Shown: piece after piece, positions 13,081 through 53,725 of the stretch
Layout: every line of letters starts with the position of its first letter
Position numbering within the stretch: position 1 is the stretch's first letter
Assembly (NCBI GenBank): GCA_017935785.1
Contig: JAGBGU010000073.1
Span: forward strand, 1 to 64,000
Direction of reading: 5' to 3'
DNA from: Bacteroidaceae bacterium
GTDB lineage: Bacteria > Bacteroidota > Bacteroidia > Bacteroidales > Bacteroidaceae
DNA length: 64,000 nt
The notes under the pieces: model-generated
Told to the model about the DNA's origin: nothing
What the model saw: the letters and a program-made list of their open reading frames with translations, nothing else
Databases searched by the model: none
Translations under genes and position numbers: made by a program

Positions 13081-13108
13081 AAAAAAAATCCGCAAAAATG
13101 CGGATTTT
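13081..13108 (-). terminator. Terminator between apt and uvrC
   Basis: AAAATCCGC / GCGGATTTT is a 9-bp perfect stem with a 5-nt loop, followed on the minus strand by a run of eight T. It overlaps the apt stop codon, and the uvrC ATG begins about 22 nt beyond the T run. Confidence 0.8.
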
Positions 13109-15670: not shown

Positions 15671-15743
15671 CAACGTAATAATACCTATTTATAATGAGGA
15701 AACATAGTTTTAATTCAAATCAATAATTTAATTTCAATCATTT

Positions 15744-49468: not shown

Positions 49469-50428
49469 TTACTGCAGTTCATCCAGATTGACCAGTCCGT
49501 TGGCAATGGCATAGACAGCCAGTCCGGCGCTTGAATGAATGCGCAGCTTGCGGCTGATGTTGCGGCGGTGCGTCATTACGGTGTTCACCGAAATAAAGAG
49601 AGCGTCGGCTATTTCCTTGTTTGAAAGCCCTTTTGCCACTTGCCGGATAATGTCGCATTCCCGTTCGCTCAGCGTATCGGAAACCGCGCCCTCCTGTTCT
49701 TCCTCCTCTTCCGGCGTAATGTGGTTAAGGCGCAGTTCCTCTTCCAAAGCCATTACACTTTCGGCAAAAAGCGTGTCTTCCATTCTGCAATGCGTCTGCA
49801 GGTCTTCTTCCGTCATGAAGATGTCCATCAGTACCTCGCCCATCAGATTGGCGTTTTGCTGTCCGGGGAAGTATTTCAGCACAATGCTCTTCAGTTCCTC
49901 AATGCTTTTTTCTATTCCGGCATGGTTTCCGCTATGCTGCTTCACCAGCGAACTGAAGTCCTGCGAGGGAATCTTGCCTTGCAACAGCTTGGTCACATAA
50001 GGGTGTATGTGCTCGTTTTCGTAATTCATGTGATGGATGACCTCTGCCATATACTCGTCGTAGAATTTCAGAATGAGCATGGAAATCTGGCTTGGCTTAG
50101 AATAGTCAAGCGCCTCAATCAGTTTGCGGCGTATGCCGGGAAGGCGGAAGTCGACAAAATAGGAGTGCGAATTCTTAAGATATACGATAAGCTGGGTAAG
50201 GTCTATCTGCCGTACCATTTCGCCGATATGAGCGTGTGCCGGATCCTTCAGATAGTTCACTACGGTGAGGAACGTGGGTAGGTGTACGTCGGCCTGGCGG
50301 CAGGTTTCCTCCACCGTCTGGTTTCCAAAACCCAGTGCAATGCCAAAGCGCCCCATCATCTGCAACATACGGTAGTCGTCACTGATTACATCGCTCATGG
50401 GGTCTGATCCGTGATATTTTTCTGTCAT
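49469..50428 (-). CDS. ScdA/Ric-like hemerythrin-domain LuxR-type transcription regulator
   Basis: A 319-residue predicted one-component regulator. Residues about 20-65 resemble the ScdA N-terminal (DUF542) domain (GRFGIALGFGNQTVEETCRQADV), but the usual Cys-Cys-Gly-Gly is replaced by ALGFGN. Residues about 80-225 are hemerythrin-like, with candidate di-iron ligands in KNSHSYF, HHMNYENEHIHPY, KQHSGNHAGIE and THCRMEDTLF. An acidic linker (TPEEEEEQEG) leads to a GerE/LuxR helix-turn-helix (about 255-310, LSERECDIIRQVAKGLSNKEIADALFISVNTVMTHRRNI, in which no single quoted motif is atypical). It probably senses oxygen, NO or redox state and controls transcription directly. It is divergent from the RidA-ccsBA-dacB unit. 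Confidence 0.85.
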   Translation of the reverse strand: MTEKYHGSDPMSDVISDDYRMLQMMGRFGIALGFGNQTVEETCRQADVHLPTFLTVVNYLKDPAHAHIGEMVRQIDLTQLIVYLKNSHSYFVDFRLPGIRRKLIEALDYSKPSQISMLILKFYDEYMAEVIHHMNYENEHIHPYVTKLLQGKIPSQDFSSLVKQHSGNHAGIEKSIEELKSIVLKYFPGQQNANLMGEVLMDIFMTEEDLQTHCRMEDTLFAESVMALEEELRLNHITPEEEEEQEGAVSDTLSERECDIIRQVAKGLSNKEIADALFISVNTVMTHRRNISRKLRIHSSAGLAVYAIANGLVNLDELQ

Positions 50429-50475: not shown

Positions 50476-50483
50476 CAAATTTA
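50476..50483 (-). promoter_or_regulatory. Bacteroidetes -7 box for the hemerythrin-LuxR gene
   Basis: The minus strand reads TAAATTTG (TAnnTTTG), about 48 nt before the ATG at 50428. A TTGG, about 23 bp upstream on that strand, may be a weak -33 element. Confidence 0.45.
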
Positions 50484-50646
50484 CAAAAATGTTTGCATAG
50501 AAAAAACCAAGTTCCGCCCTTTTGTCGTCCCTGTAAGGCAAAAATAATCAATTTTAGGTATGCATTCCGGTAACTTCTTCACATACATGAGATTGGTAAA
50601 ACCGTAAAAAAGCGGAGCATAGGCAAGATAGTTGGACAAAAAATAG

Positions 50647-50654
50647 TATCTTTG
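50647..50654 (+). promoter_or_regulatory. Bacteroidetes -7 box for the RidA-like gene
   Basis: TATCTTTG matches TAnnTTTG, 22 nt before the ATG at 50677. No -33 TTTG is seen at the usual spacing. With the minus-strand box at 50476 it marks a divergent control region of 248 bp. Confidence 0.5.
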
Positions 50655-50676: not shown

Positions 50677-51819
50677 ATGATTAAATACGATAAAAAGGAC
50701 TTTGAGCCGGCAGGAGTCGTGCTTCAGACCTCGGCCTTTTCCGGCTGCGGAGGTGTGGACGAATGGCATGTAATAATGCATGTCAAGGTTGCTGGCGAAT
50801 CTTTTTCCGGACAAATGGAACGGCTGGCCCGCGCCGAGGCCCTCTTGATGAAAGAACCGGAATGGGAAGGCGCACAATGTGTGACACGCCGCTATTTCCT
50901 TTCGGACAGCGCCAACCAGTATGCCGATATGCCGGCACAGCTTTCCGGTGCAACAAGTGTTATCCAGCAGCCCCCCTTGGACGGAAGCAAGGTGGCGGTA
51001 TGGCTGTATCTGGTTCGCGGAATGGTAGTTTCAAGCCAGGACGGCACCACAATCTGCGCCAGCAACGGGTACACACACCTTTGGCGCATGGGAATGCAGC
51101 ATCCCGAAGGCGACAGCGCCCTTCAGACCACAAAGCTGCTGGACCGTTACGAGGAAATTCTCTCCGGCTACGGAGCCAACGTGGAGGAAAACTGTATGCG
51201 TACCTGGTTTTTTGTGCGTGATGTGGACACTCATTATGCCGGACTGGTGCAGGCGCGAAAGGAGTGGTTCTCCCGGCACGGGCTGACGGAACAGACACAC
51301 TACATTGCCAGCACTGGCATTGGAGGAGGACCGGCAGACACAAAAGCATTGGTACAATTGGGCACTTATGCCATGAAAGGGATGGAGCCTTCGCAAGTCC
51401 GCTATCTGCATGCACCGCAATGGCTCAATGCCACCCACGAGTACGGCGTAACCTTTGAGCGTGGTACGGCAATTGAGTACGGCGACCGCGCCCATGTCCT
51501 GATTTCCGGAACAGCCAGTATAGACCATTTGGGACAGGTGGTGTATCCGGGCGACATTGTGGGACAGACCCGCAGGATGTGGGACAATGTGAATGCCCTT
51601 TTGCAGGAAGCGCAGTCCTCAATGGAAGATGTCATGCACATTATCGTCTATCTGCGCGACATTGCCGATTATACAACGGTAAGCCGTCTTTTCTCCGAGC
51701 GTTTCCCGCAGATACCTACCGTGATCACACTGGCTCCCGTATGCCGTCCCGCATGGCTTATTGAAATGGAATGTGTGGCTGTGGTGCCTCGCAATCAGGC
51801 CGAATACCGCGCTTTCTGA
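50677..51819 (+). CDS. RidA/chorismatase-superfamily protein
   Basis: A 380-residue cytosolic protein. The C-terminal third is a YjgF/RidA-type fold (HVLISGTASIDHLGQVVYPGDIVGQTRRMWDNV, with ITLAPVCRPAWLIEMECVAV). The N-terminal part is a second, diverged domain, an arrangement like FkbO/Hyg5-type chorismatases. Whether it hydrolyses chorismate or deaminates imines cannot be decided by eye. It lies 34 bp before the ResB-CcsA gene and probably shares its transcript. Confidence 0.75.
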   Translation: MIKYDKKDFEPAGVVLQTSAFSGCGGVDEWHVIMHVKVAGESFSGQMERLARAEALLMKEPEWEGAQCVTRRYFLSDSANQYADMPAQLSGATSVIQQPPLDGSKVAVWLYLVRGMVVSSQDGTTICASNGYTHLWRMGMQHPEGDSALQTTKLLDRYEEILSGYGANVEENCMRTWFFVRDVDTHYAGLVQARKEWFSRHGLTEQTHYIASTGIGGGPADTKALVQLGTYAMKGMEPSQVRYLHAPQWLNATHEYGVTFERGTAIEYGDRAHVLISGTASIDHLGQVVYPGDIVGQTRRMWDNVNALLQEAQSSMEDVMHIIVYLRDIADYTTVSRLFSERFPQIPTVITLAPVCRPAWLIEMECVAVVPRNQAEYRAF

Positions 51820-51853
51820 GAAGACGGAATAATATCAAAAGGATTGAAGGATA

Positions 51854-53725
51854 ATGAAGAAATCTGCTAAATGGTCCTGGGGCTGTATGCTGTTCCTGAT
51901 TGTTATGATGGCAGCGGCGACAATAGTCGAGTCCGTCAAGGGAATGGGTTATGGCCATGCATGGGTATACGGCACTTGGTGGTTCAGACTGTTGTGGCTG
52001 GTAATGGCAGGCACAGCGCTATGGCACATTGTTAAGTGCAGGCTTTGGCGGCGGACGGTGGTGGGACTTATTCACCTGGCTTTCCTGATGATATTGGCCG
52101 GAGCGGCACTTACCGCCATTACCTCGCACCGCGGAATCCTTCATTTGCGCGAAGGAAGTTCCTCGGATATCTATGCCGATGACAACAGTCGTGTGAGGCA
52201 CCTCCCTTTTGAAGCCCGGTTGGACAGTTTCAGAATACAATATTATCCCGGCACGCAGACTCCGCAGGATTATATCAGCGATGTGGAGATGGGCGGTCAG
52301 AAATACCGCATATCCATGAACCGAATTGCGCGGAAGGATGGTTTCCGCTTTTATCAGTCCAGTTACGACAGGGACGGGATGGGTACAATCCTGCGGGTGA
52401 ATTACGACCCCTGGGGAACCGGCGTTACCTATGCCGGCTATCTGTTGCTGGGGCTGTCCATGCTGGTATATCTTATTACGGGAAGCTCTTTTTGGAAACG
52501 CCGGAAAAACCTCCGCACCCTGTCGCTATGGGCCGTGCTGCTCTTTTTCTCCGGCACGCTGAATGCTTCCGACTCTCTGCCGGTTGTTCCGAAAGAGAGC
52601 GTGGAACAACGGGCAAGCGAACAAGTGTTGTGGCAGGGAAGGCCGGCACCTTTGGGCACGTTGGCCAAAGACTTCCTTCTGAAAGTTTATGGCAAGACCG
52701 CATATAAGGGACTTACGCCGATGCAGGTTCTTCTCTCGTGGCAGGAAAACCCCGAGCACTGGGCGCAGGAACCCATTATTGTGCGCAAGGACAAGACCGT
52801 TGCCTGTCTGGACGACTTTATGGATTATTCGGTAATGCCTCCGCGCATAAAGGGAGTTGAGGGCGCACCGCATCTGGCCGAAAAAGTCAGCCTGATCCTG
52901 ACAATGACCCAGGGGCATCTGATAAAACCGCTTCCGGCCGAAGTGGAACCCCGTTCTGATGTGCGGATTGCCGCTGAATTGTTTTATAACCGCTTTAACT
53001 GGACGCTATGTGGCATGATAGGATGTTGGCTGTTGGTTCTGGTATGTCTTGTGCGCTCCTACGTTCCGTTGAAAGCCGTGTCCGGCAATCAGCATCTTTT
53101 AGGGACTGCGGTCAGTATGGGCCGGTTGTGCTTGTTCCTTTTTATGGCAGTGGCCTTTTTCCTGCGTTGGAATGCTGCCGGAAGAGTGCCTTTGAGCAAT
53201 GGGCACGAGACACTTCATTTTGCCGCACTTTGCGTACTGGCCGTAGGCGGGCTTTCTTCTCGTCTTCGCTACGAGGCCGCGTCCCTGTTGCCGGCCGCAT
53301 TCTTGCTTCTGGTGGCCCACCTGGGTGAGAAGGATCCCGGAATAACCCCTTTGATGCCGGTTCTGCATTCTCCTTGGCTCAGTGCCCATGTCAGCGTTAT
53401 CATGCTCAGTTACGCTCTGCTGATGCTTTCTATCGTAGACCGCCGTATGCTTCGTGCCGCCGTGTGTCTTTTGGCGGCGGGTATCTTTTTGGGCGCCGTT
53501 TGGGCCAATGTGTCGTGGGGCTCCTATTGGAGTTGGGACCCCAAGGAAACGTGGGCGCTCATCACTATGCTGGTCTATAGCGTGCCATTGCATTCGCAGA
53601 GTCTGCCCTGGTTCCGTTCTATGCGTAATTACCGTATTTATTCATTGGTGGCACTGGCTAGCCTGGCCATGACGTACTGGGGCGTGAATTACCTGTTGGG
53701 GGGTATGCACAGCTATGCTTCCTGA
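51854..53725 (+). CDS. Cytochrome c biogenesis protein, ResB-CcsA (CcsBA) fusion
   Basis: A 623-residue inner-membrane protein of the system II heme-attachment pathway. The N-terminal ResB-like part has three membrane helices (about 10-27, 42-58, 70-88), a periplasmic domain, and a fourth helix (about 190-208). The C-terminal CcsA part has the tryptophan-rich heme motif WGSYWSWDPKETW and conserved histidines in LSNGHETLHFAA, SPWLSAHVSVI and the terminal GGMHSYA. It should export heme and ligate it to CxxCH apocytochromes. No c-type cytochrome gene is in the window. Confidence 0.9.
   Translation: MKKSAKWSWGCMLFLIVMMAAATIVESVKGMGYGHAWVYGTWWFRLLWLVMAGTALWHIVKCRLWRRTVVGLIHLAFLMILAGAALTAITSHRGILHLREGSSSDIYADDNSRVRHLPFEARLDSFRIQYYPGTQTPQDYISDVEMGGQKYRISMNRIARKDGFRFYQSSYDRDGMGTILRVNYDPWGTGVTYAGYLLLGLSMLVYLITGSSFWKRRKNLRTLSLWAVLLFFSGTLNASDSLPVVPKESVEQRASEQVLWQGRPAPLGTLAKDFLLKVYGKTAYKGLTPMQVLLSWQENPEHWAQEPIIVRKDKTVACLDDFMDYSVMPPRIKGVEGAPHLAEKVSLILTMTQGHLIKPLPAEVEPRSDVRIAAELFYNRFNWTLCGMIGCWLLVLVCLVRSYVPLKAVSGNQHLLGTAVSMGRLCLFLFMAVAFFLRWNAAGRVPLSNGHETLHFAALCVLAVGGLSSRLRYEAASLLPAAFLLLVAHLGEKDPGITPLMPVLHSPWLSAHVSVIMLSYALLMLSIVDRRMLRAAVCLLAAGIFLGAVWANVSWGSYWSWDPKETWALITMLVYSVPLHSQSLPWFRSMRNYRIYSLVALASLAMTYWGVNYLLGGMHSYAS

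Follow-up and report, generated by a model that had tools for sequence, protein, structure and literature searches.

The gene considered here lies on the minus strand of a 64,000-nt stretch of DNA from a Bacteroidaceae bacterium, a gut-type member of the Bacteroidales, hereafter referred to as the window, and encodes a protein in which a hemerythrin-like domain shares one chain with a LuxR-type DNA-binding domain. The gene, the parts of its product, and the two genes of the divergent operon are as follows.

49469..50428, minus strand: fusion gene, 319 aa from ATG to stop, comprising an ScdA_N-like region, a hemerythrin/RIC-type four-helix bundle, an acidic linker and a GerE domain
50219..50404, minus strand: ScdA_N-like N-terminal region, residues 9–70 (profile alignment from ScdA residue 9 onward)
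49724..50200, minus strand: hemerythrin/RIC four-helix bundle, residues 77–235 (Pfam, ligand conservation, model and structure match)
49679..49723, minus strand: acidic flexible linker, residues 236–250 (pLDDT <50 at residues 239–250)
49508..49678, minus strand: GerE (LuxR/NarL-type) helix-turn-helix, residues 251–307 (Pfam and structure match)
50677..51819, plus strand: Rid-family protein, encoded first in the divergent operon (Pfam, NCBIfam and synteny)
51854..53725, plus strand: CcsBA, a ResB-CcsA fusion and system II cytochrome c synthetase, encoded second in the divergent operon (Pfam, NCBIfam and synteny)

Both principal domains are recognized by Pfam above the gathering cut-offs, namely, Hemerythrin (PF01814) at residues 111–221 with 28.0 bits against 25.3, and GerE (PF00196) at residues 251–307 with 72 bits against 23.5; PF01814 is matched in all 14 members of homologue set A2. 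The NCBIfam models RIC (TIGR03652, residues 35–220) and ScdA (PRK13276, residues 11–220) also align, the former with 40.3 bits, far under its equivalog cut-off of 204.7, and the latter likewise far under its own. Compared with solved structures, a profile of the domain matches ScdA of Staphylococcus aureus (2.6e-9), with the alignment running from the start of the N-terminal domain, and YtfE of Escherichia coli (4e-7). Given that Pfam yields no ScdA_N match in any of the 14 members, the presence of the ScdA_N-like region is deduced from the profile alignment only. In the AlphaFold model of the protein (mean pLDDT 88), the helical part matches ScdA (Z 14.8) and YtfE (Z 14.4), and the C terminus matches the DNA-binding domains of LiaR, VraR and NarL (Z ~11). 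Although Z scores of ~14–15 for a helical bundle can come from the common arrangement alone, the sequence profiles agree here. The recognition helix of the GerE domain reads TVMTHRRN, and no receiver domain with a phospho-acceptor Asp is found in the protein by Pfam. Thus, the preliminary description of this locus was right in placing a hemerythrin-like domain with His/Glu ligands and a GerE domain within one open reading frame; its statement that the two are joined directly holds for the fusion as such but not for the directness, given the flexible acidic linker between them.

The hemerythrin bundle contains 6 conserved ligands, H88, H133, E137, H169, H213 and E217. Four of these (H133, E137, H213 and E217) show no variation across 68 fused homologues and 14 split ones, in which the two parts are encoded by separate genes; H88 is kept in 67 and H169 in 64 of the 68 fused proteins, and both in all 14 split ones. 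Equally invariant, in all 68 and all 14, is C43 in the N-terminal region. The 6 ligands correspond to the RIC pattern; the profile alignment places the first His one position out of line with its counterpart in YtfE/ScdA. The canonical pattern of O2-carrying hemerythrins (five His, Glu and Asp; H...HxxxE...HxxxH...HxxxxD) is not found in the fusion, which has HxxxE and HxxxH but whose final pair, H213/E217, is again HxxxE. The HxxxH motif is formed in the clade of the window by H165 (window 49934–49936), which precedes the ligand H169 by four residues and could supply a fifth His ligand there; position 165 is His in 27 of the 68 fused homologues and mostly Phe or Tyr in the rest. As previously claimed, the ScdA-type N-terminal domain lacks the Cys-Cys-Gly-Gly motif: the profile aligns residues 33–35 of the fusion, G-F-G, to the CCGG of S. 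aureus ScdA. The motif is missing from fused and split homologues alike, with G-F-G at this position in both, so that its loss predates the fusion and cannot have resulted from it.

The fusion is not confined to the window. A survey of relatives, as the preliminary description had suggested, recovered the full-length gene in 20 of 24 additional genomes from the genus, with a 21st copy interrupted by contig ends, and in ~45 further public loci, well beyond what chance would give; the hemerythrin-LuxR fusion is thus fixed in the genus. In other families of the order, the counterparts are two adjacent genes, for a hemerythrin protein of ~240 aa and a LuxR-type protein of ~200 aa. The first 130 residues of the latter resemble a degenerate receiver domain, which Pfam Response_reg missed in 5 of 6 proteins and hit with E=0.036 in one, and which in the predicted model of one such protein consists of alternating strands and helices, at low confidence. 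The totals were 70 fused genes and 36 hemerythrin genes with a LuxR partner gene. Mapped onto a tree built from 87 hemerythrin domains, the fused and split states require a single change (support 64), compared with a mean of 26 for shuffled states, and the split form nearest to the fusions comes from the same family as the genus of the window. The simplest account would be a single fusion event, starting from a two-gene operon, in which the receiver-like part was dropped. The earlier view of the protein as a regulator that operates without a kinase is supported by this history, the receiver-like domain being degenerate in the split partner and removed in the fusion. At one split locus (L078/L119), two tandem hemerythrin-LuxR pairs are separated by ~2 kb; DUF2023 and flavodoxin genes come next, and sites of the palindrome described below are predicted after each of the two pairs.

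The gene neighborhood was described earlier as divergent from cytochrome c maturation genes, which applies to the second divergent gene, CcsBA, but not to the directly divergent one, which encodes the Rid-family protein and resembles chorismatase. In sister genomes, the operon runs in the order porin, imelysin, di-haem oxidoreductase (DHOR), porin, cytochrome-like lipoprotein, Rid and CcsBA; all seven genes are visible in L129 and L130, and the Rid gene follows porin, imelysin, DHOR, porin and lipoprotein in L127, L129 and L130. The operon neighbors of CcsBA in these genomes include haem proteins that depend on it. In the window, Rid-CcsBA (50677–53725) resembles the tail of this operon, the first five genes being missing there. 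Conserved divergence from Rid-CcsBA is not the rule: most relatives with sufficient flanking sequence have the imelysin-operon porin in the divergent position. A paralogous porin-imelysin-DHOR-CcsBA operon is located on another contig of the same genome (G000:C89:573-7041). The split pairs, in turn, as identified by eye, adjoin FeoAB in three loci (L114, L120 and L082), DUF2023-flavodoxin in L119/L078, and OprB-like porins in L114 and L117.

The promoters of the fusion genes have in common a 22-bp palindrome, cAATACYYAnWWnTRRGTATTg. It emerged when the upstream regions of 61 dereplicated fusion genes, with the -7 boxes masked, were searched for palindromic motifs, and had a log-likelihood of 228 at width 22 and 217 at width 20, compared to 38–47 for five simulated controls at width 20; motifs of odd width scored lower, and the unmasked search recovered only the -7 promoter box. 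The layout of the palindrome, TACYYAn-2-nTRRGTA, is that of inverted heptamers with a 2-bp spacing (7-2-7). NarL sites consist of a heptamer pair of similar layout, and by this analogy the palindrome would suit a GerE-type domain. In the window, the predicted elements between the fusion gene and Rid-CcsBA are as follows.

50542..50563, no strand: predicted binding site AAATAATCAATTTTAGGTATGC, intergenic, the best palindrome match in the 64-kb window (18.3 bits)
50476..50483, minus strand: TAAATTTG, a likely -7 box for the fusion gene, separated from the site by 58 nt (canonical distance 20)
50647..50654, plus strand: TATCTTTG, a likely -7 box for the Rid-CcsBA operon, separated from the site by 83 nt

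Matches scoring at least 18 are expected at ~0 per 64 kb of simulated sequence, and the site at 50542–50563 aligns with a conserved block in relatives. Two weaker matches occur elsewhere in the window, at 13086–13107 and 15679–15700 (scores 13.2 and 13.7, respectively). The operon on C89, which was outside the training promoters, has a site with a score of 21.8 and TACCTTTG exactly 20 nt downstream. Given the distances of 58 and 83 nt between the site in the window and the two -7 boxes, control is predicted with less confidence for Rid-CcsBA here than for the C89 operon. The earlier proposal of cytochrome c maturation as a target is partly supported, in that CcsBA is the tail of the divergent operon of sister genomes, but the window's own site is not at the canonical distance. 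In most relatives, similar sites precede porin-imelysin operons located away from the fusion gene, many with the 20-nt spacing, and none was found in one porin promoter from a genome without a hemerythrin gene (G038). The intergenic DNA of the split-pair loci contains 8 sites scoring at least 14, compared with a mean of 0.44 for permuted matrices (0/200).

The palindrome alone, at up to 3 mismatches, is not enriched in the window's own genome (93 matches vs 123 for the reversed control), so that only its combination with a -7 box is specific. We scanned 148 Bacteroidales genomes for a composite site, defined as a palindrome with up to 2 mismatches and a -7 box exactly 20 nt downstream, and obtained 93 such sites vs 5 for the reversed pattern and 4 for a 15-nt spacer. 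The first genes downstream are FeoAB (18 sites), the porin of the imelysin operon (10), TonB receptors (about 12 or more), DUF2249 proteins (5), the regulator gene itself (3), flavodoxin (2) and OprB (1). By chance, 0.03 FeoAB sites would be expected, assuming about one FeoAB gene per genome of ~2,500 genes. Three composite sites (L251, L272 and L280) precede a gene for a small His-rich membrane protein followed by a TonB receptor, a layout as reported for the iron-induced BT0503-0504. The DUF2249 proteins are encoded in L195, L198, L201, L202 and L259, one of them with DUF1858 and a TusA-like domain. The second composite site of the window's own genome (G000:C6, ~9700; L246 4916-7156) has 2 mismatches and precedes a probable TonB-dependent receptor. 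Genomes with sites make up 43 of the 96 that carry a hemerythrin gene vs 11 of the 52 without one (p=0.0045), in a statistic that treats genomes as independent despite their shared ancestry. Likewise with genomes taken as independent and some TonB receptors classified by eye, the genes after sites are of iron type in 48 of 76 cases in hemerythrin-gene genomes vs 2 of 14 in gene-less ones (p=0.0009), and for a narrow set of iron-type genes (FeoAB, porin, flavodoxin and the regulator) the same comparison is not significant (p=0.07). At up to 2 mismatches, the composite site is absent from more than half of the gene-bearing genomes.

The unfused arrangement is known from experiments. An operon of hemerythrin and CdhR genes comprises PG1236-PG1237 in Porphyromonas gingivalis and BT_0519-0520 in Bacteroides thetaiotaomicron (PMC10434189), and the operon is shown in fused form for Prevotella intermedia (PIN17_RS10465) in a figure legend of the same 2023 study (PMC10434189). 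Under low iron, BT_0519-0520 is up 16–20x and PG1236-37 about 7x, and iron starvation of B. thetaiotaomicron brings BT_0516-0517 up 326–598x and BT2473-2482 up 62–324x (PMC10434189); the genes induced there are of the same kinds as the neighbors of the split pairs. Passages of two papers cite CdhR as an activator of hmuYR (PMC10434189, PMC10101095), and cdhR is lowered under microaerophilic conditions (PMC10101095). The mechanism of regulation by CdhR has been called unclear, iron binding by CdhR not having been demonstrated (PMC10434189). Searching the literature for hemerythrin-LuxR proteins, or for an iron regulator that uses this site, returned nothing beyond that study (PMC10434189). Thus, the fusion architecture itself is already known, if barely described, and what is new here is the predicted binding site together with the predicted regulon.

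The palindrome leads to iron-uptake genes, and iron starvation induces the unfused operon (PMC10434189). Iron is thus the better-supported signal, and the earlier proposal of O2 or NO as the main one is not supported. Judging from the sequences, the fusion protein is probably a one-component, kinase-free iron-starvation regulator of the CdhR type, perhaps reading iron by the occupancy of its di-iron site. We propose that the protein would bind the palindrome as a dimer and that iron would be read by the filling of the di-iron site. Less surely, the iron-poor form may be the active one, turning on iron uptake and the regulator's own gene, and the filled di-iron site may switch the regulator off. 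The palindrome covers the -33 region, a position that would fit an activator bound at ~-43 as well as a repressor, so that an apo-activator and a holo-repressor are both compatible with it; by analogy, the reports of CdhR activating hmuYR would favor activation in low iron.

Alternatively, the palindrome could be real and linked to iron but read mainly by another regulator, with the fusion being merely a member of the regulon. One candidate is an orphan CdhR-like LuxR protein encoded on contig C6 (G000:C6:3368-3955; L246 869-1456), which has a receiver-like domain and no hemerythrin partner and adjoins a probable A-type flavoprotein; its recognition helix, TVITHRKS, is similar to that of the fusion. 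In addition, sites precede FeoAB or the porin in two genomes, G130 (86% complete) and G172 (92%), in which no hemerythrin gene was detected, perhaps due to incomplete assembly. However, the sites are concentrated in the promoters of the fused and split regulator genes, their presence follows that of the hemerythrin gene, and the split pairs adjoin FeoAB and flavodoxin genes, all of which makes a different main reader unlikely.

A role as an O2 or redox sensor, in which the di-iron site would bind or react with O2 and thereby change DNA binding, the control of iron genes then following from the coupling of iron oxidation to iron need, has a similarly small chance of being correct. The full ligand set is in place, H165 provides HxxxH with H169 as in O2-binding hemerythrins (in 27 of the 68 fused proteins), and the lowered cdhR under microaerophilic conditions (PMC10101095) points in the same direction, but the predicted regulon consists of iron uptake, with no recognizable oxygen-response genes among the targets, and the split operon is induced by iron starvation (PMC10434189). 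The chemistry of O2 or NO would be allowed by the ligands, making it a possible second input. Sensing of NO or nitrosative stress by a derivative of RIC/YtfE is quite improbable: the nearest structures are indeed the RIC proteins YtfE and ScdA, active in the repair of nitrosative and oxidative damage, and five composite sites precede DUF2249 proteins, a family seen in NO regulons of other phyla, but the CCGG cysteines are missing in all members, and no composite sites were seen before hcp, nrf or NO reductase genes, or before any other recognizable NO-response gene among the listed targets, in which iron uptake dominates.

Returning to the iron-starvation regulator, we also put forward, more tentatively and at somewhat less than even chances, a broader proposal: the RIC-derived di-iron domain may be the iron sensor itself, and the fused and split family may constitute the main iron-starvation regulator of Bacteroidales, acting at 7-2-7 palindromes of feoAB, imelysin/di-haem-oxidoreductase, TonB-receptor and flavodoxin genes in a manner resembling FBXL5 and BRUTUS. 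If so, a RIC-type di-iron protein that once served in repair would have become a gene switch dependent on iron. Iron sensing in Bacteroidetes is poorly understood; since the fusion combines the hemerythrin part and the DNA-binding domain in a single polypeptide, and since a predicted site and gene list are now defined, the question can be reduced to a simple binding experiment. The finding is more interesting for the predicted regulon than for the fusion itself.

Among known systems, the closest is that of CdhR/PG1236 and BT_0519-0520, which likewise combines a hemerythrin-domain protein with a LuxR-type regulator and has iron-linked genes nearby. The hemerythrin and LuxR parts of the fusion are encoded together and are homologous to the split operon, the kinship with the named CdhR genes being based on their published description (PMC10434189) and the split pairs found here; unlike the CdhR pairs, the protein of the window is a single chain without the receiver-like domain. 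With RIC/YtfE/ScdA, the fusion shares the fold (Z ~14–15), the six-ligand pattern and an ScdA_N-like N terminus, but it lacks the CCGG cysteines, scores 40 bits against the cut-off of 204.7, and carries a DNA-binding domain. With the NarL/FixJ family (NarL, LiaR and VraR), it shares the GerE domain and a predicted site of NarL-like inverted heptamers with 2-bp spacing, but not the receiver domain, and hence there is no phosphorylation input. Finally, the eukaryotic FBXL5 and BRUTUS (for the latter, PMC12022348) also control iron uptake by way of a hemerythrin-like domain, a function that the fusion would share as judged from its predicted regulon only. These proteins act via ubiquitin ligase activity, whereas the fusion, a putative iron sensor, would act via transcription; in principle, it could thus be a bacterial counterpart of FBXL5 and BRUTUS that operates on transcription instead of protein turnover.
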